A stretch of 46,094 bases of DNA. Source: Candidatus Altimarinota bacterium. GTDB taxonomy: Bacteria; Patescibacteriota; Gracilibacteria; BD1-5; UBA6164. Made by a program: the position numbers and the translations under genes. Where the stretch lies: positions 1 to 46,094 of the forward strand of contig JAUXPL010000046.1 in the NCBI GenBank assembly GCA_030683605.1, read 5' to 3'. Every line of letters begins with the position of its first letter. Positions within the stretch are counted from its first letter, which is position 1. The notes beneath the pieces are model-generated. The model saw only the letters and a list, made by a program, of their open reading frames with translations, had not been told where the DNA came from and searched no databases. Below are positions 18,351 to 33,596 of the stretch, in pieces.

Positions 18351-19337
18351 ATGATTAATATGGTTACTACTAATTCAAAACAAATGACTACTGGAAAAGC
18401 ATTTGAATATGCTTTACTAACTCAATTTGAAGAAAAATTGAAATATAAAACAAATATTGAAGTGATTAAAAATTCTTCATTTCATATTGCTAAAGGATGT
18501 TTTGAAAATACAAGCAAAATAGAACAAAGTGATTATTTACTAACAGCTAGCTTTGCAGTTAATTTTCTTATGGATATTGAACCGAGATTATCAAATGATG
18601 TTGGAATAAAAGATATTCTTCAACTTGAAATATTGTCTGATGATCATGGAAAATCTGGTGATGTTAGAGATGTACTAGCAATTAGATTATTACAAAAATG
18701 GGAAATTGGTGTTTCTGCTAAAAATAATCATAATGCTGTAAAACATTCTCGTTTATCACATTTAATAGATTTCGGTGAAAAATGGTTAGGTGTAAAAGTT
18801 TCAAAAGAGTATTTTTATACAGTTACTCCTATTTTTCAAAGTTTAGAAAAGTTAAGAAAAGAGAGTAAAGCAACAAAAAAATGGAGTGAATTAGGAGATT
18901 ATCATACTTCTGTATATGTTCCAATTTTAGAAGCATTCATGAAAGAACTAAAAAATCTTAATGAAAATAATGATAATATTCCTTCAAATCTTGTTTCTTA
19001 TTTGATAGGAAACAAAGATTTTTACAAGGTAATAAAAAGTAAAAATATAGTAGAAATACAAGCATATAATATAAATGGAACTTTGAATTTACCATTTGAT
19101 AAAATTGAACCAAAATATAAAACACCAAAAATTCCATTGCCAACAGAAATAATTGATATTTCTTTTAAAGAAAATAGTAATACAACTGTCATAATAACCA
19201 TGAATAATGACTGGACTCTGTCTTTTAGAATACACAATGCAAGTTCAAGAATAGAATCATCACTAAAATTCGACATAAATCTTTTGAAATCTCCAAAAAA
19301 GTTATTCAAAAATACTTTAAATATTAGCAAAGATTAA
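18351..19337 (+). CDS. Type II restriction endonuclease, HaeIII family (probable GGCC specificity)
   Basis: A 328-aa protein with SGDVRDVLAIR and WEIGVSAKNNHNAVKHSRLS, the conserved block of HaeIII-type endonucleases. It is close to HaeIII itself in length and sits directly before a methyltransferase strikingly like M.HaeIII. All of its roughly 11 glycines are GGN and the frame is open under the standard code, unlike the host genes around it, which points to recent acquisition. ATG at 18351 is used; an ATG at 18360 (MVTTNSKQ) is an alternative. Specificity GGCC is inferred from the methyltransferase match. Confidence 0.85.
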   Translation: MINMVTTNSKQMTTGKAFEYALLTQFEEKLKYKTNIEVIKNSSFHIAKGCFENTSKIEQSDYLLTASFAVNFLMDIEPRLSNDVGIKDILQLEILSDDHGKSGDVRDVLAIRLLQKWEIGVSAKNNHNAVKHSRLSHLIDFGEKWLGVKVSKEYFYTVTPIFQSLEKLRKESKATKKWSELGDYHTSVYVPILEAFMKELKNLNENNDNIPSNLVSYLIGNKDFYKVIKSKNIVEIQAYNINGTLNLPFDKIEPKYKTPKIPLPTEIIDISFKENSNTTVIITMNNDWTLSFRIHNASSRIESSLKFDINLLKSPKKLFKNTLNISKD

Positions 19338-19339
19338 TT

Positions 19340-20416
19340 ATGAAAATAATATCATTATTTACTGGTGCTGGTGGTCTTGATCTTGGTTTTCATAAAGCCG
19401 GTTTTGAGACTATTTGGGCAAATGAATACGACAAAACGATTTGGGAAACTTTTGAACACAATTTTCCAAATACTTTTTTAGATAAAAGGAGTATTGTGAA
19501 TGTTCCTAATTCTGATGTGCCAGAATGTATGGGGATTATCTGAGGTCCTCCGTGTCAAAGCTGGAGCGAAGCAGGAGCTGGAAGAGGAATAAACGATAAA
19601 AGAGGTCAACTTTTTTTTGAATACATAAGAATTTTAAAAGAAAAAGAACCTTTATTTTTTCTTGCTGAAAATGTTTCAGGCATTTTATTACCAAAACATA
19701 AAGATGCTTTTCAAAATATATTAAATGAATTTAAATCTCTAAATTACAATGTTTCCTATTTTCTTTTGAATGCGAATAATTATGGAGTTCCTCAAGATAG
19801 ACAAAGGGTCATCATCGTAGGGTATCATAAAAAAATGGTGAAAATGTTTGCACCTCCAAAAGAAATATTACCAAGACCAATTTTAAAAGATGTAATTTGG
19901 GATCTAAGGCTTGCAAAACCTGCAAAAGACAAAAACTATGCAAACGATATTTGTGATCTCCAATGTTCAAATCATGAATATATGAATGGTGGATTTTCTA
20001 CTATTTACATGTCAAGAAATCGTGTCAGAAGTTGGGATGAGCCGAGTTTTACCATTCAAGCAGGAGGTCGTCATGCTCCACTTCACCCACAAGCCCCAAA
20101 AATGCAATTTATAGAACAAAACAAAAGAATTTTCGTCCCTGGAAAAGAAGATTTATACAGAAGACTTTCCGTTCGTGAATGTGCCAGAATACAAACTTTC
20201 CCTGATAATTTCCTGTTTAAGTATAAAAGTATCGCTGATGGTTACAAGATGATCTGAAATGCCGTGCCAGTAGAGTTTGCAAAACACTTAGCAAATGTGA
20301 TTTATAAAGATGTTTCTGAATATTTGAAACTTCATCAAATGCAAAGATCAGAGCTTTTGGAAAAAAAGAAAGTTTTTGTTTCAAAAGAAGTGAAGAAGGA
20401 TTTAGTGGAAGTTTAG
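19340..20416 (+). CDS. DNA (cytosine-5) methyltransferase, M.HaeIII type
   Basis: A 358-aa C5-methyltransferase protecting host DNA from the endonuclease 2 bp upstream. Motif I is SLFTGAGGLDLGF, motif IV GGPPCQSWSEAG with the catalytic Cys, motif VI FFLAENVSG, motif VIII QDRQRVIIVG, and motif X DGYKMIGNAVPV. The target-recognition region (STIYMSRNRVRSWDEPSFT) closely follows M.HaeIII. Of about 22 glycines only two are UGA: the first Gly of GGPPCQ (19541-19543) and the Gly of IGNAVP (20255-20257). Both are invariant in the family, so the gene needs code 25 to be functional. Confidence 0.95.
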
Positions 20417-22416: not shown

Positions 22417-22755
22417 ATGAAACAAATAACTTGGGATGAATTCCAAAATGTAGAATTAAGAGTTGGTACAATTATTAATGTAGAAGATTTCCCTGAAGCA
22501 AAAATACCTGCATACAAAATAACTGCAGACTTTTGAGCAGAAATAGGGATTAAAAAATCTAGTGCTCAGATAACAGTATTATATACTAAAGAAGAATTAT
22601 TAAACAAACAAATAATATGAGTAGTGAATTTCCCTATTAAACAAATAGGTCCTTTTATGTCTGAATTTTTAGTTACTTGATTTGTAAATTGAAACTGAGA
22701 AGTAATATTAGCAGTGCCTGATAAAAAAAGTATAAATTGAACTAAATTAGGATAA
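22417..22755 (+). CDS. csaA: CsaA-type tRNA-binding-domain protein
   Basis: A 112-aa protein made of one EMAP/tRNA-binding OB fold. It begins MKQITWDEFQNVELRVGTII and includes AYKITADFGAEIGIKKSSAQIT, VVNFPIKQIGPFMSEFLVTG and EVILAVPDKKSINGTKLG, all typical of CsaA. CsaA is a dimeric tRNA-binding protein with reported chaperone-like export activity. Its last 38 codons and following 41 bases are repeated at 33417-33574. UGA glycines are frequent, so the gene is resident in this lineage. Confidence 0.9.
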
Positions 22756-22796
22756 ATTCCTAAACAATCTTAAATTTTACATTATTTAATTAATTT
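22639..22796 (+). repeat. 158-bp direct repeat, left copy (3' end of csaA)
   Basis: Begins AAACAAATAGGTCC inside csaA and ends in the A+T-rich spacer after it. It matches 33417-33574 over 158 bases with 4 mismatches and no gaps. Confidence 0.9.
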
Positions 22797-22839
22797 ATAT
22801 AATTATTCAAATAATTAAAACTAATTTTTTTTTAAAATT

Positions 22840-23126: not shown

Positions 23127-23540
23127 ATGAAAAAAAAATATGTTGCTTGTGCATTATTACTTAATAATAAAAATAAACTTCTTATTCAAGATAGAAAATG
23201 AATTTCTAAATACTGAGAAGAATGGTCTTTTTTTTGATGAGGTATAGAAAAATGAGAAAATTCAAAAGAGGCATTAATAAGGGAAATACAAGAAGAATTA
23301 TGATATGATATTTCAAATTGGAAAATTCTTTATCTATGAGAAATAGTTCACTATATTAAGACCATTGATATAGAATATCATAGATTTTTATATTGAATAA
23401 AAATACCTAATAATATAGAAAACTTTTATGATAATGAATGAAGTTGAGCTGTATTTTTTTCTTTAGATGAGGTTAAAAAATTAAAATTTAATACAAATAT
23501 ATTAGCAGAAATTATGCAATTAGAAAATAACTTTATTTAA
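23127..23540 (+). CDS. Nudix hydrolase (1 of 3)
   Basis: A 137-aa Nudix protein whose box reads GGIEKGENSKEALIREIQEELGY, fitting GX5EX7REUXEEXGU. The metal-binding glutamates are present in REIQEELG. The closing region VHYIKTIDIEYHRFLYG carries the variable substrate face, so the nucleotide or other substrate cannot be told. Glycines in the box are UGA codons. It is followed by an attC-like palindrome (site B), which would make it a single-gene cassette. Confidence 0.9.
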
Positions 23541-23834: not shown

Positions 23835-24215
23835 ATGAGAATAGCAATTAATTCAGCAATTATAAATAACAATAAAGAAATATTACTTGTAAAAAAACGT
23901 GATACTTGGATTTTGCCATGATGAAAACCTGATGAATGAGAAAGTGATTTAGAATGTTTAAATAGAGAAATAAGTGAAGAATTAAATTGAGCAAAGTTAA
24001 GAAATACACAATTTTACAATATTTTTGTATGACAAACTCCTTATAAATGAGATCAATTAGAAGCTAGAGTATATTTTGCAGAATTAATAACAGATATATT
24101 AAGTGCTTCAGCAGAGTTATCAGAAGCTAAGTTTATTAAAGATTTTGATAATTACAAAATTTCTGATATAACCCTTAAAATTTTAAACTGATTAAAAATA
24201 ACGTGAAATCTATAA
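23835..24215 (+). CDS. Nudix hydrolase (2 of 3)
   Basis: A 126-aa Nudix protein with the box GGKPDEGESDLECLNREISEELN. The terminal Gly-hydrophobic of the box is replaced by NG. The N-terminus RIAINSAIINNNKEILLVKK and LPGGKPDEGE resemble MutT/DIM-type small Nudix enzymes. It stands alone between attC-like sites B and C, with 37 bases before its start, so it has the shape of an integron cassette. Substrate unknown. Confidence 0.9.
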
Positions 24216-24378: not shown

Positions 24379-24405
24379 TTTTGCCCTATCGGGCAATTTT
24401 ATTTT
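24379..24405 (+). terminator. Terminator between attC-like site C and the radical SAM cluster
   Basis: TTGCCC/GGGCAA hairpin with loop TATC, followed by TTTTATTTT. It isolates the cluster from the Nudix gene upstream. Bases 24406-24504 contain no gene. Confidence 0.6.
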
Positions 24406-24504: not shown

Positions 24505-26055
24505 ATGGTAAATTGAAAACTTATGTTGATCGTACCAAATGGTACTTCCCCTGAGTGAAGAGATGTAAGAAATCATGTACCATTAGGAGCAATTAGTGTT
24601 TTATCAGAAGTAAAAAAGGCTTGTTATGATGTTTTGTTATTAGATAGCGTATGAGAGTCTCGTAAACAATATTATTTATGAAATACTGATTCATATTTTC
24701 ATGATGAAGAAATACAATGAGATATTTTTAGGAAAACTTGATTAGAAGTAGAAGAAATTTTAAAAAGAATAGCAAAAGAAAAACCAACTGAAATATGAGT
24801 GAGTTGTTTAACGATAGTAGATAGATCTGAAACATTAAAATTAATAAGAAACATTAAAAAAGAATTTCCTAATTTACCAATAATATTATGATGACACGAA
24901 GCAACTCAATCTTATAAAGAAATATTATGATTTTGAGAATATGAAGTTGAAAAAATACCAGAAGTTGATTATATTGTTGTATGACCTTGACAGCCTGTAG
25001 TTGTAAAACTACTTGAATATTTAAGATGAAATTTAAATAAAGATAATTTAGAATGAGTTGCTTTTGTAGAAAATTGAAAACTACAATTTATTCCTCAATT
25101 TTGAAAATTTAATCCTGATAATTATGCATTGCCTGATTATAGTTTATTACCACAAGTAAGTGTTTTATGAAGGGAAAAACCTATTGATATTTATTCCTTG
25201 ATTTGAAATACACATGCTTGAGAAGTTAAAAATTTACTGTGATTGAGTAACAATGAAATTGTTTCTTATTTAGCATTAATAACATCTTATTGATGCTGAT
25301 TCTCATGTACTTTTTGTGATAATCCTCCAGATTTAATTCGTTATTCTCCAGAAAATGTTATTAAAATGATTGAACAATTTAAAGATCTATATTGAGTTGA
25401 CTATATTGATTTTATGGATAATAATTTTTGATGATGAAATAGAGAATCTAGAGAAATTGTTTTTGAAATATTAGAAAGATTGAAGTGAAAAAATCTAAAT
25501 TTCTGATTTTCAAATGGATTAACATTTGAATCAATGGCAAGAGAAGATTTTAGATTATTAAAAGCTTTAAAGTCAGCTTGAAATCTTAGACATCTTGCAT
25601 TTCCTATAGAAAATTGAAATGATAGAGTTTTAAAAATGGTTAAAAAACCACATACATTAAAAATGGTAAATGAAGTTTTAGAAGCTTTTAAATCTATTTT
25701 TGAAGACGAATTAGATCATATAAATAGAGAAGCTTTTTTTATATGATGATTTCCTGATACAAGATGATTACCAGCTGAAACTCCCGAAGAAGTAGAAAAA
25801 AGTATACAATTAATGGAAAAACTTTTAAAAGAATGAAAACTAGACCAAGCAATTTTTCTAACTTTATCTCCAGTAACTAATTCTTATAGGCAAGTTTGGA
25901 GACAAAAACATCCAGATTGAGCATTTGAAAAAGCACTTTTTTCTAAATGAACAGATTTATGGCCTTATTGAATGGATTTTATAAAAAGTATACATGAAAG
26001 AGTAAAATTAATTAATCAAAGATATTGAAAAAGCTCAATCACTAGAAAACTTTAA
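24505..26055 (+). CDS. Cobalamin-binding-domain radical SAM protein
   Basis: A 516-aa protein. Residues about 5-175 resemble the B12-binding Rossmann domain (LMLIVPNGTSPEGRDVRNHVP, EIGVSCLTIVDR, PIILGGHE, VDYIVVGPG). Residues about 255-480 form a radical SAM barrel with the iron-sulfur motif C264GFSC268TFC271. Such enzymes use SAM and often methylcobalamin for methylation or rearrangement. The canonical B12 DXHXXG motif is not evident. Start ATG 24505 is in frame with a second ATG at 24523. It opens a cluster with a second radical SAM protein, a PanD-like protein and a Nudix enzyme. Confidence 0.9.
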
Positions 26056-26073
26056 TTTTATAAAAAAATTTAT

Positions 26074-27330
26074 ATGAAAACTATAAGATTAGAAAATACA
26101 AGTTATCCTAAAATGGATAATAAAAAAAGGAATAAAATATTGGTATGAGATGATGCAACTTGATATATAAAAGCCATATCAATTCCTGAGGTAGAAATTA
26201 ATGAAAGTGAGGATTTGGAAATATTAATAGACAGAATTAAATTACTACTATGAAATATTTTAGATTTCTGAAATATTTGAAATTATAGAATAATTAATAA
26301 CTCTCCTATAGAATGATGATATTCAGCTCCTTTTAAAATTTATTTAGATTTATCTGATAAATGTCAATTATCTTGTAAATTTTGTTTAAGTTCTTCATCT
26401 ATTGAATGAACCAATGAATTAAACATTGAACAACTGAAAAGAATAATACAAGAGATGTGAGAATTGTGAGTTTTTAGAGTAAAATTGTGATGATGAGAAC
26501 CATTAATATACCCTTATATTTTTGATGTTATTAAATTATTAAGAGATAATCATATATTTGTCTCGTTAAGTACAAATTGAAAGAAAATGAATAGAAAAAT
26601 TGCACAATTATTAAAATTATATTGAGTAAAAGTTTCTGTTAGTATGGATTGAAATTTAGAAAATAATGACTATTTAAGATGAAAATGAACTTATAAACAA
26701 GCCATTAATGCTATAAAAATATTAAAAGAAGAATGAGTTGTTAATTTATCTATTAGAATGAATATAATTCCTGTGAATTTTGAAGATATATCTCATATTG
26801 TAGTATTAGCAAAATCACTTTGAATAAAAGCAAAATTTTGTTTTTGTAGACCATCTTGAAGAGCAAGTATTGATAGTTCTATGTTAGTTTGATTTGATAA
26901 TTCAAAATACTATTATGAAGTTTTAAAATATCTAAACTCTCCTGAAATTTTACCATTTGTTTCAATAGATGAATCTATGATGTTTGAACAACCAGAAGAG
27001 TTAAAAACTTATATTTGGTGAGAACAAATATGTTGAGCAGCTAATAGATCTATGCATATAGACAGCTCTTGAAAAATATCTCCATGTGTATATATGTGAA
27101 AAAGTTATCAACAATGAAAAATATATGAAGATTGAAGTTTAATTAACTTTTGGAGATGAGAAATTTGAAATGCTTTTGCAAAAATGAGAAATTTACAAGA
27201 ACCAGAATGATGTAAAACTTGTGATAGATTATGTAAATTTGAATGTCCAGCAAATAGATCACATTTTAATGGTTGAGATACAACTTGACCAGACCCAGTA
27301 TGTTTAAAATATATTACTAATAATTTATAA
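26074..27330 (+). CDS. Radical SAM / SPASM-domain protein
   Basis: A 418-aa protein with the radical SAM cluster motif C97QLSC101KFC104 in DLSDKCQLSCKFCLSSS, a GGEPL SAM contact (KLGGGEPLIYP), and a C-terminal SPASM region with clustered cysteines (EQICGAANRS; ISPCVYMG; EGCKTCDRLCKFECPA) able to hold auxiliary Fe-S clusters. SPASM enzymes usually modify peptides or proteins, so a small peptide partner is expected, but none was found nearby. It begins 18 nt after the previous gene and ends 16 nt before the PanD-like one, indicating one operon. Confidence 0.92.
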
Positions 27331-27346
27331 TTTAACTTTAAATAAT

Positions 27347-28144
27347 ATGGAAAAATTAGTTAAAAGAAGTGCTATACATAATATAGTAATAAATAAATGT
27401 AACTCTAGTATATCTAATTGAGAAATTAATGAATGACTAGTGATACCTAAAAAAATATTAAATGCTTGTGATATAAAAAATGGAGAACAAATTATTGTTA
27501 CAAAAATTTATTGAGATAATTGGATAAATAGAGTAAAAACTTTTGTTATAGAGTGAAAAGATGATTGAATAGTAGAAGCAAGATGAAGTTTAGCAAATTT
27601 TTATAAAGAATGAGAAATAGCTTGTATTGTAACCTTTACATTATTAAATGAAGAACAATTCAAAGATTATATAAATGATAAATACCCTATTTTTGATATT
27701 TGATTTAATCCTGATACAAATAAAGATAATTTAGAATTTAATCTAAATATTGAATTTAGAACTTTCAAAGAATTTAATGTAAAAGAATATTGAAAATATT
27801 TAGAGTATAGAAAAAATATTAGTAGAGTACAATTATCTACTTTGATATTATGACTTAAAGTAAATCAAACTCATCCAGATTGTTTACAATGAAGTGCAGA
27901 GTTACCTTGAAAAATTATGGATAAATGAAACCTATCAAGATATGAATGAGTAGCTGTTTATAATGTATCAAAATGATGAGCATCTGAAACTTATGCTGTT
28001 CCTATGCCTGATAAAGTTGTTATGACTACTTGAGCTATGGCAAAATTTGCTAAGGTGTGAGAAAAAGTTAATATAGCTTCTTTTGTTATTAGTAAAGATG
28101 CCATAATTCCAAGTATTGTTTTTACTAAAAATAATGATATTTAA
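27347..28144 (+). CDS. Tandem PanD-like (pyruvoyl decarboxylase-fold) protein
   Basis: A 265-aa protein with two successive domains that each follow aspartate 1-decarboxylase (about 125 aa each). Domain 2 (about 165-250) keeps the self-cleavage Gly182-Ser183 (LQGSAELPGKI) and Thr215-Tyr216 (SETYAVPM), and ends VGEKVNIASFVI like PanD's VGDIVIIASFV. Domain 1 (about 5-97) keeps an Arg62 and Thr65 (INRVKTFVIEG) but has no serine at the cleavage site (NEGLVIPKKIL). PanD makes beta-alanine from aspartate via a serine-derived pyruvoyl group. The shared active site here may be built from both halves. Substrate unknown. Confidence 0.8.
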
Positions 28145-28165
28145 TTTTATTATTAATACTAAATT

Positions 28166-28807
28166 ATGGATAAATATATAAATGATCCTGAAGCAGATTT
28201 ATCAACTGCATTAGTTACTTTAACTGATAATTGATTTTGTTTTATAATCCAACCTGAAGATAGATGGTGAAAAAAAGATAATTGAGATACTTTAATTCCA
28301 ATTTGATGAGTATGATGAAAATTAGAAAAATGAGAGACTCTTGAAGAATGCCTTAAAAGAGAAGCATTAGAAGAAATAGGTGTAAATATAGAAATACTTG
28401 AAGTTTGAAAGCAATTTTTAGTTATAGATCCTAATCAGATAGTTTTTGAAAGTAATAATACTGAAAATAATGTAACTCCTTTATTTGTTTATCGTAATCC
28501 AAGAAGTGAAAAATGAAGAAAACCGTTCACAAATGTTTTTGTGTATTTAGCTAAGCTTAATGTCAAAGAGATTAAATTGATAGATAATCCAGCTATTATA
28601 GAGTTAGAAGAGAATATCTTACAGCAAATTATTTCACAAGAAATTACTATTGAACAAGCCTTACATCAATGATGAAAAGTTAAATCTAAAATAAACTTAC
28701 CACAAAATTGAATTTTATTACCTCTTCCTACAGTTAAGTGAATAATTAAATTTCTTTCAGTTGTATCTGAAGATGTAAAATCTAAAATAAAACATATATT
28801 ATCTTAA
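28166..28807 (+). CDS. Nudix hydrolase with C-terminal extension (3 of 3)
   Basis: A 213-aa protein. The Nudix box is GGKLEKGETLEECLKREALEEIGV, near residue 55. It is preceded by GFCFIIQPEDRWGKKDNGD and followed by an 80-residue C-terminal extension with many charged helices (TIEQALHQGGKVKSKINLPQN). The gene is last in the cluster, 21 nt after the PanD-like gene and before a terminator, so it is likely co-expressed with the radical SAM proteins. It could process or detoxify a nucleotide intermediate; that is inference. Confidence 0.88.
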
Positions 28808-28811
28808 CTTT

Positions 28812-28834
28812 ATCCGACTATCGTCGGATTTTTT
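28812..28834 (+). terminator. Terminator of the radical SAM/PanD-like cluster
   Basis: ATCCGAC and GTCGGAT form a 7-bp G+C-rich stem with a TATC loop, followed by TTTTTT. A degenerate copy occurs at 30566-30583. Confidence 0.75.
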
Positions 28835-28855
28835 CTTACCCCATAAAAAAGCTCG

Positions 28856-28905
28856 TTATCACTCGCAAAAAAGATTTTGGTTTATTCTGAAAATCATCTA
28901 TAATA
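28856..28905 (+). promoter_or_regulatory. Promoter module, copy 1
   Basis: TTGGTT (28877-28882) and TATAAT (28899-28904) are 16 bases apart. The whole 50-bp segment from TTATCACTCGC to TATAATA is repeated with few changes at 30602-30651, in front of another acquired-looking gene. Confidence 0.6.
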
Positions 28906-28978
28906 CAAAAAATCAACAAAAACAAAAAGTAGAAGTAAAGGGTCGTTACACTTGATTTTTATTATTAAGGAAATATTT

Positions 28979-30528: not shown

Positions 30529-30601
30529 ATAATATATATTTTAAAATAGAAATTATTTAACTTTTTCCGACTATCGAAAGATTTCCTTCACCAAAATATA
30601 A

Positions 30602-30651
30602 TTATCACTCGCAAAAAAAATTTTGATTTATTCTAAAAATAATCTATAATA
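30602..30651 (+). promoter_or_regulatory. Promoter module, copy 2
   Basis: TTGATT (30623-30628) and TATAAT (30645-30650), spacing 16, lie 46 bases before the DUF389 start. Homologous to the module at 28856-28905, including part of the terminator sequence before it (CCGACTATCG at 30567-30576). Confidence 0.6.
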
Positions 30652-30696
30652 AGAATAAAATTACAAAAATAAATATAAAATTAACAAATACTGAAA

Positions 30697-32249: not shown

Positions 32250-32795
32250 ATGACAAATATAACTTTTATTACAGGCAATCAAAGTAAAGCAGATTACTTA
32301 TCGAAATATCTTGGTCATCCCCTAGATCATGTCAAACTAAATTTGGATGAAATTCAATCTACTGATCTAAATGAAATTGTAGAACATAAAGTTAGACAAG
32401 CTTATTATATAATTCAGAAACCGGTTATTGTAGAAGATGTTTCTTTAGAATTTAATGCACTTGGTGGTTTACCTGGTCCTTTCATAAAGTTTTTTGTAGA
32501 TAAGGTTCCATTTGAGTTAATATGTTCTATGATACCTAGTGATTTAACAAGAAAAGCAAAAGCAAGATGTGTTTTTGGTTATTTTGATTGAACAGAGTTA
32601 AAATTATTTGAAGGAAGTTTAGATGGAGAAATTGCAACAGCTCCTTCAGGTGAAAATGGCTATGGGTGGGACAAGATATTTATTCCACAATGATATACTA
32701 TCACAAGAGCATCGTTATGTGAAGAAGATGACCAAAAAACATATTTGAAAATTAAACCATTTGCAAAACTGAAAAAATTCCTAGAAACAAAATAA
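32250..32795 (+). CDS. Ham1/RdgB-like non-canonical purine NTP pyrophosphatase
   Basis: A 181-aa protein starting ITFITGNQSKADYLSKYLG (the T/SGN-K motif that binds nucleotide). VIVEDVSLEFNALGGLPGPF carries the catalytic Asp/Glu, and PSGENGYGWDKIFIPQGYT is the family's GYGxDPIFxPxGY motif. The enzyme removes ITP, dITP and XTP by hydrolysis to monophosphates. Two UGA glycines (FDGTEL and PQGYT) against several GGN again suggest a partly recoded import. It may complement the Nudix enzymes in nucleotide sanitation. Confidence 0.9.
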
Positions 32796-32874: not shown

Positions 32875-33426
32875 ATGAAATACACAGAATTTTGAAGCCT
32901 TTATGAACATTGAATTGATTATATGATACTAGATATTAATTGATATGAAGACATATGAGATGCTCTCAAAATGGATAAATATACTTGATTGAATTTGAAT
33001 TGTTTACCAAAAGATTTAAAAGAAAAAATTCTAAAATCAAAACCTGTAGATAATATAATAGTTAATTGAGCTAATTACTGAATAGTTTTAGCTGAAATTT
33101 TTAAAGAATTGTGAATAAAATCATATAATATTGTTACAGATAATAATGATAGAAATATTGAAAGTCTAAAAAGACATTGAGTTATTTATATTTGAAGTAT
33201 AAACGATTTTTTAGATCTAAATATACAATCTATTAATTGACACTTTAATTGCTTTAGATATGGTTTTATTAATAGAAATTCTTTTACTTGAAACTTAAAC
33301 TTGCCATATGTATTATTTTATGAAAATGAAGATTCAGAAAAATCTATAAATAAATTAATCGAATCTGTTAAGTTAAATAATCAAAAAACATTAAATACTT
33401 ATCCAAATAAATTATGAAACAAATAG
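32875..33426 (+). CDS. Hypothetical protein (183 aa) ending in the csaA repeat
   Basis: Starts MKYTEFGSLYEHGIDYMILD with alternating beta/alpha elements (DNIIVNGANYGIVLAEIFKE; YNIVTDNNDRNIESLKRHGV) that suggest a Rossmann-like fold. Glycines are nearly all UGA. Its last codons (LGNK, stop TAG 33424-33426) lie inside the right csaA repeat, so its 3' end was probably set by the recombination that created the repeat. Family not recognised. Confidence 0.7.
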
Positions 33427-33532
33427 GTCCTTTTATGTCAGAATTTTTAGTTACTTGATTTGTGAATTGAAATTGAGAAGTAATATTAGCAGTGCCTGAT
33501 AAAAAAAGTATAAATTGAACTAAATTAGGATA
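33414..33532 (+). pseudogene. csaA remnant with internal deletion
   Basis: ATGAAACAAATA, identical to the first four codons of csaA, is joined directly to the codons for GPFMSEFLVTGFVNGNGEV through to the stop at 33530-33532. In the intact gene AAACAAATA occurs both at codons 2-4 and at codons 75-77, so a deletion between these 9-base repeats explains the structure. The 39-residue frame lacks most of the OB fold. Confidence 0.8.
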
Positions 33533-33574
33533 AATTCCTAAACAATCTTAAATTTTACATTAGTTAATTAATTT
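33417..33574 (+). repeat. 158-bp direct repeat, right copy (3' end of csaA)
   Basis: Ungapped match to 22639-22796, with mismatches at four positions. The two copies stand 10,778 bases apart in the same orientation and enclose the radical SAM/PanD-like region. Confidence 0.9.
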
Positions 33575-33596
33575 TAATACAGAATACAAAAAATTT

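Follow-up and report, generated by a model that had tools for sequence, protein, structure and literature searches.

A candidate small-molecule pathway with two radical SAM enzymes and a tandem PanD-like protein in a code-25 Patescibacteria genome

Introduction

Of the enzyme families related to the locus described here, that of PanD is known to catalyse a single reaction. Its active site takes Pyr25, Thr57 and Tyr58 from one subunit and Lys9 and Arg54 from the partner subunit (PMC3314653, PMC6969166), and Lys9, Arg54, Thr57 and Tyr58 are among the strictly conserved residues (PMC3314653). The structure of M. tuberculosis PanD places the active site between two subunits, and Arg54 is marked there too (PMC6969166). 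The formation of the pyruvoyl group needs Thr57, and Tyr58 and Asn72 are dispensable (PMC3975893).

Two kinds of radical SAM enzymes come closest to the other proteins of the locus, namely the mycofactocin protein MftC (TIGR03962), which has a radical SAM/SPASM architecture, and the B12-binding radical SAM P- and C-methyltransferases (NF038361, TIGR04479 and TIGR04013), in which a B12-binding domain is followed by a radical SAM core. To our knowledge, biosynthetic operons have rarely been described in the reduced genomes of Patescibacteria. In the present study, we analysed an operon that combines relatives of these families in a window of 46,094 nucleotides, the whole stretch of contig JAUXPL010000046.1 from Candidatus Altimarinota bacterium.

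Results

For the window to be read, UGA has to be translated as glycine (genetic code 25), and the four genes are then complete open reading frames. Under table 11, the stretch 24505-28807 has no long open reading frame and the four genes are not open. With table 25, the operon consists of four plus-strand genes in 24505-28807 with intergenic gaps of 18, 16 and 21 nt from gene 1 to gene 4. It ends in an intrinsic-terminator-like hairpin on the plus strand (28812-28829), which has a 7-pair stem and a T-run; the feature as a whole is placed at 28812-28835. Three terminator-like sites were found in the region, and 0.7 were expected from shuffles; a further hairpin of this type (24381-24396) lies between the upstream Nudix gene and the operon. 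The signature motifs are intact in all four proteins, as judged by profile matches and a motif check. These results bear out the sequence-only reading of this DNA, which had proposed an operon of four genes closed by one terminator. Its coordinates and gene calls are correct once code 25 is applied, and its list of parts (a B12-binding radical SAM protein, a SPASM radical SAM protein, a PanD-like tandem and a Nudix hydrolase) is right, with the Pfam domains over their cut-offs. A 92-nt intergenic repeat was also seen at 28847-28938 and 30593-30684 (75% identical), each copy directly 3' of a terminator-like site.

Gene 1 (24505-26055, plus strand) encodes a B12-binding radical SAM protein of 516 aa. 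Its first ATG is at 24505, and the in-frame ATG at 24523 is a possible true start. Both Pfam domains were matched (B12-binding, 44.2 bits with a cut-off of 32.1; Radical_SAM, 56 bits), and the superfamily motif CX3CX2C is present at residues 264-271. The order of the two domains is that of the P- and C-methyltransferases NF038361, TIGR04479 and TIGR04013, but the protein scores 54-71 bits against these models, whose cut-offs are 251-600 bits, and no subfamily fits. All NCBIfam matches were far under the cut-off, the top one being a P-methyltransferase family (71 vs 575 bits). TGA is used for 39 of its 42 glycines. The B12-binding domain of gene 1 is the sole one detected in the genome.

Gene 2 (26074-27330, plus strand) encodes a radical SAM/SPASM protein of 418 aa with an N-terminal extension of about 80 residues. 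Radical_SAM was matched with 83.6 bits, and SPASM (PF13186) with 29.4 bits, over the cut-off. The cysteines of the SAM cluster are Cys 97, 101 and 104, in agreement with CX3CX2C, and the seven SPASM cysteines are Cys 320, 338, 380, 383, 387, 391 and 410, with the spacing CX2CX3CX3C and not CX2CX5CX3C. The closest NCBIfam model is MftC (160.8 bits, 4.9e-47), which gene 2 matches over nearly its full length and with the same architecture. Gene 2 differs from the MftC system in that its score is under the cut-off of 265, it has the additional N-terminal region, and neither a precursor nor an RRE partner was detected. There was no plausible small open reading frame for a precursor peptide within or adjoining the operon. 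In the genome, no match was found for the RRE-type PqqD domain, and the model of the N-terminal region of gene 2 is of low confidence and too weak for an RRE call. No match to mycofactocin MftB was found in the genome, and the control genomes gave none either. The SPASM matches on viral contigs were generic radical SAM proteins and served as alignment rows only.

Elsewhere in the genome, a His-Xaa-Ser system was observed on contig C17 at about 51.9-54.7 kb (L018:8992-11702), with HxsB and HxsD over the NCBIfam cut-offs. This locus also encodes an HxsD-like protein and a protein with (HGS)n repeats that is similar to HxsA, and beside it there are about ten more radical SAM genes together with glycosyltransferase-like and asparagine-synthase-like genes.

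Gene 3 (27347-28144, plus strand) encodes a tandem PanD-like protein of 265 aa, in which Asp_decarbox was matched in two stretches (7.6e-21). The layout is a degenerate N-half (about residues 1-108), a linker and a catalytic-type C-half (about 156-265). The superfamily model PF02261 was passed (74.6, cut-off 25) and the PanD equivalog TIGR00223 was not (44.1 bits, cut-off 106). A MAFFT alignment of the whole tandem put the PanD N-terminus on the wrong half, and the two halves were instead aligned separately with 12 single-domain PanDs and E. coli PanD (13). The E. coli reference agrees with the PDB alignment.

The C-half retains the equivalent of PanD Gly24-Ser25 as Gly182-Ser183 (27890-27895, plus strand; codons TGA-AGT), the predicted self-cleavage site and putative source of the pyruvoyl group. 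Since Gly182 is encoded by UGA, a standard-code host would not read the message through to the pyruvoyl site. The C-half also has the equivalents of Thr57 (Thr215), Tyr58 (Tyr216) and Gly73 and Ala74 (Gly229-Ala230), and it is without those of Lys9, His11, Tyr22, Arg54 and Asn72, with Leu at the position of Lys9. In the N-half, the equivalents of His11, Arg54 (Arg62) and Thr57 are retained, and Ser25 is replaced by Leu, Tyr58 by Phe and Lys9 by Ala. Neither half has Lys9, and Arg54 is present in the serine-less N-half only. The AlphaFold model of the tandem is modest (mean pLDDT 56, pTM 0.45). In this model, the C-half aligns with the PanD zymogen 1pt1_A over 109 residues (Z 13.1, rmsd 2.9). 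The model of the N-half, in which the mean pLDDT per block is 30-64, is of low confidence. Its matches to barrel domains, among them PHS018 and the N-terminal domain of V/A-ATPase, are weak (Z 6-7) and no proof of its fold.

Gene 4 (28166-28807, plus strand) encodes a Nudix hydrolase of 213 aa (NUDIX, 39.9 bits) with a C-terminal extension of about 70 residues. Its Nudix box GKLEKGETLEECLKREALEEIG is intact from residue 51 and fits GX5EX7REUXEEXGU. Two further Nudix genes lie directly upstream of the operon (23127-23540 and 23835-24215; 91-100% TGA glycines), and a gene for a Ham1-type pyrophosphatase (32250-32795) is located in the same repeat-flanked segment.

This segment of about 10.8 kb, with the operon inside it, is bounded by direct repeats of 167 nt, which are 96% identical and 10,778 nt apart. 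The left copy (22635-22801, plus strand) covers the 3' part of an intact tRNA_bind/EMAP-type gene (22417-22755), and the right copy (33413-33579, plus strand) is part of an internally deleted copy of the tRNA_bind gene (33384-33579), in which the start was fused to the interior at the short repeat ACAAATA. The duplicated gene marks the edges of the variable segment. In a genome of the same genus (G499), both flanks are collinear with 84-94% DNA identity and there is a single tRNA_bind gene. The operon is lacking there; other genes occupy its place, and the locus is therefore variable. No integrase was found in the segment between the repeats.

The share of TGA among the glycine codons of the operon genes is 0.93-0.97 (93-97%). 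It is 0-15% in the nearby HaeIII R and M, DUF7000, DUF389 and Ham1 genes. The high share indicates that the operon has long been resident in code-25 hosts, and on this ground we reject the idea that a standard-code bacterium donated it recently. The region in which this long-established operon lies has, however, also received recent imports. The genes for a HaeIII-type restriction endonuclease and a C-5 cytosine methyltransferase (18351-20416) have TGA at 0 of 11 and 2 of 22 glycines, and this near absence suggests their recent import from a standard-code donor.

Among the genomes searched, the four-gene set was seen in one genome only. The tandem PanD was absent from 379 other genomes of the phylum and from 352 other genomes of the class, four of which belong to the same genus (the two sets partly overlap; about 730 in total). 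Apparently ordinary single PanDs occurred in five genomes of the phylum set and two of the class set. There was no match to the tandem on 72,556 plasmids, and no relative on viral contigs or in broader genome contigs, the latter searched with exact short peptide patterns that distant forms can escape. Phages gave ordinary PanD matches only, and a second scan of genome contigs with poorly chosen N-terminal patterns returned MoaA only. Relatives of gene 1 at E<=1e-20 were not found in the phylum sample, nor those of gene 2 at E<=1e-25 in the class. With regard to linkage, neither the tandem PanD nor the B12 protein turned up in any of the other genomes that were searched.

SPASM relatives with 26-32% identity were detected in six genomes of the phylum. 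In one of these (G119), they are clustered with a B12-radical SAM protein, two more radical SAM proteins and two other proteins, one with DUF4922 and one called MazG-like by eye, with no Pfam match. Of the plasmid-borne relatives of gene 2 whose match extends into the N-terminal region, the closest comes from Rhizobium sp. T1473 (27% identity). On the Rhizobium plasmid (L026:6090-11777), two SPASM radical SAM proteins are followed by a MazG-like pyrophosphatase gene, with a dTMP kinase gene nearby. Relatives of gene 1 (24-26% identity) lie directly before dTMP kinase and Nudix genes on three Streptomyces plasmids (L083, L085 and L086), in the order HhH-GPD-like, B12-radical SAM, dTMP kinase and Nudix, and their radical SAM proteins are 62-72% identical. 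No description of this plasmid gene set was found. It shares with the operon a B12-radical SAM relative followed by a Nudix gene, but it has dTMP kinase where the operon has PanD and is without the SPASM enzyme.

Discussion

The four enzyme families are all known, but we did not find their combination or the complementary PanD halves described in the papers that we searched, and the expectation that no described pathway would contain this combination held in our literature search. Overall, the locus is most economically read as a small-molecule pathway, derived from an amino acid or a nucleotide, all of whose reactions we infer. We give a probability of about one half to a biosynthetic operon of accessory, island-borne character whose substrate is a small molecule rather than a ribosomal peptide, with the following steps. 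The SPASM enzyme would carry out a radical oxidation, a C-C bond step or a decarboxylation, as in its nearest family MftC, and the B12-radical SAM enzyme would perform another radical reaction, probably methylation. The tandem PanD would cleave itself at Gly182-Ser183, form the pyruvoyl group and decarboxylate the intermediate at its amino-acid part. The active site of the tandem would be built from both halves of one chain, with the pyruvoyl group, Thr215, Tyr216 and Gly229-Ala230 from the C-half and with Arg62 of the N-half holding the carboxylate. The Nudix enzyme may hydrolyse a nucleoside-diphosphate-linked intermediate or a nucleotide by-product. Several points weigh against the proposed pathway. 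The set is known from a single genome, which is the main limit, the N-half model is of low confidence, Lys9 as one of the two residues that act in trans in PanD is lost altogether, and B12 for the gene 1 product must come from outside.

The tandem protein is central to this proposal. Its C-half is like PanD in fold, in the Gly-Ser cleavage site and in the equivalents of Thr57 and Tyr58, but the protein differs from PanD in being a tandem whose N-half has no serine, in the double loss of Lys9, in the presence of Arg54 in the N-half only, in a TIGR00223 score under the cut-off and in the lack of PanC in the genome. Because Arg54 of PanD comes from the neighbouring subunit, the two halves, judged from their aligned residues, resemble a heterodimer in a single chain, with one active site divided between them. 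The complementary pattern would fit a duplication after which the pyruvoyl side was retained in one half and the arginine side in the other. With Lys9 lost from both halves, the substrate is probably not aspartate, and the position of Arg54 in the half without serine also speaks against an aspartate decarboxylase. The decarboxylation suggested by the sequence-only reading is plausible, but not as that of aspartate. PanC was absent from the genome, and the same search was positive in 9 of 14 control genomes; a role in pantothenate synthesis is therefore unlikely, as the partner is missing. As for nucleotide chemistry, which had been suggested for some step, the dTMP kinase, Nudix and MazG-like neighbours of distant relatives on the Streptomyces and Rhizobium plasmids lend indirect support. 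These neighbourhoods show only that such radical SAM proteins accompany nucleotide-processing enzymes, since the relatives are distant (24-27% identity) and the gene content differs.

A peptide had also been named as a possible substrate. In a RiPP-type route, the SPASM protein, as a relative of MftC, would modify a peptide whose gene lies elsewhere in the genome, and the remaining enzymes would complete the product, as with mycofactocin. The near full-length match to MftC as top NCBIfam model agrees with this, the N-terminal region of about 80 residues in gene 2 could be a peptide-binding domain, and the same genome has a true RiPP-like system of the His-Xaa-Ser type. The MftC score is, however, under its cut-off (160.8 vs 265), and MftB was not found, in a search that had no positive control. 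As neither a precursor-like gene within or next to the operon nor a PqqD domain in the genome was detected, the peptide route becomes less likely and the peptide substrate is not supported; we consider this route unlikely. Somewhat less credit still is given to a module against phages or competitors, in which the radical SAM proteins would make an altered nucleotide in the manner of prokaryotic viperins and the Nudix enzyme would protect the producer. Such a module would suit a variable, repeat-flanked region that has HaeIII-type restriction-modification, a Ham1-type pyrophosphatase and two Nudix genes besides gene 4 nearby, as well as the dTMP kinase-like genes that adjoin relatives of the radical SAM proteins. 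The SPASM protein does match the PADLOC pVip models weakly (3.8e-17), but these matches span the shared radical SAM core only, and other radical SAM families score far higher. The PanD-like protein had no PADLOC match, and we know of no role of PanD in defence. A known defence system was rejected, as the PADLOC matches were at superfamily level only.

It may also be asked whether the four genes belong together at all. They could be metabolic genes that were acquired horizontally and came to lie side by side by chance, without a common pathway, given that the flanking cargo is a patchwork, in which the DUF7000, DUF389 and Ham1 genes differ from the operon in their few TGA glycines, and that the four genes were not found together elsewhere in the genomes searched. 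Against this patchwork on both sides stand the spacing of 16-21 nt, the single strand, the single terminator and the equal use of TGA (0.93-0.97), which point to a unit with a common history, and a chance run appears to us the least probable of the alternatives.

Returning to the small-molecule pathway, a more specific form of it can be put forward tentatively. Two radical SAM enzymes may feed a single-chain heterodimeric pyruvoyl enzyme, whose halves would serve as pyruvoyl carrier and carboxylate clamp for a new substrate, in a new pathway of code-25 Patescibacteria. A duplicated PanD with one active site split across its halves would show how the family gains a new substrate. Furthermore, an accessory pathway that is fully adapted to the variant code speaks for an exchange between bacteria that use code 25, rather than for recent import from donors with the standard code.
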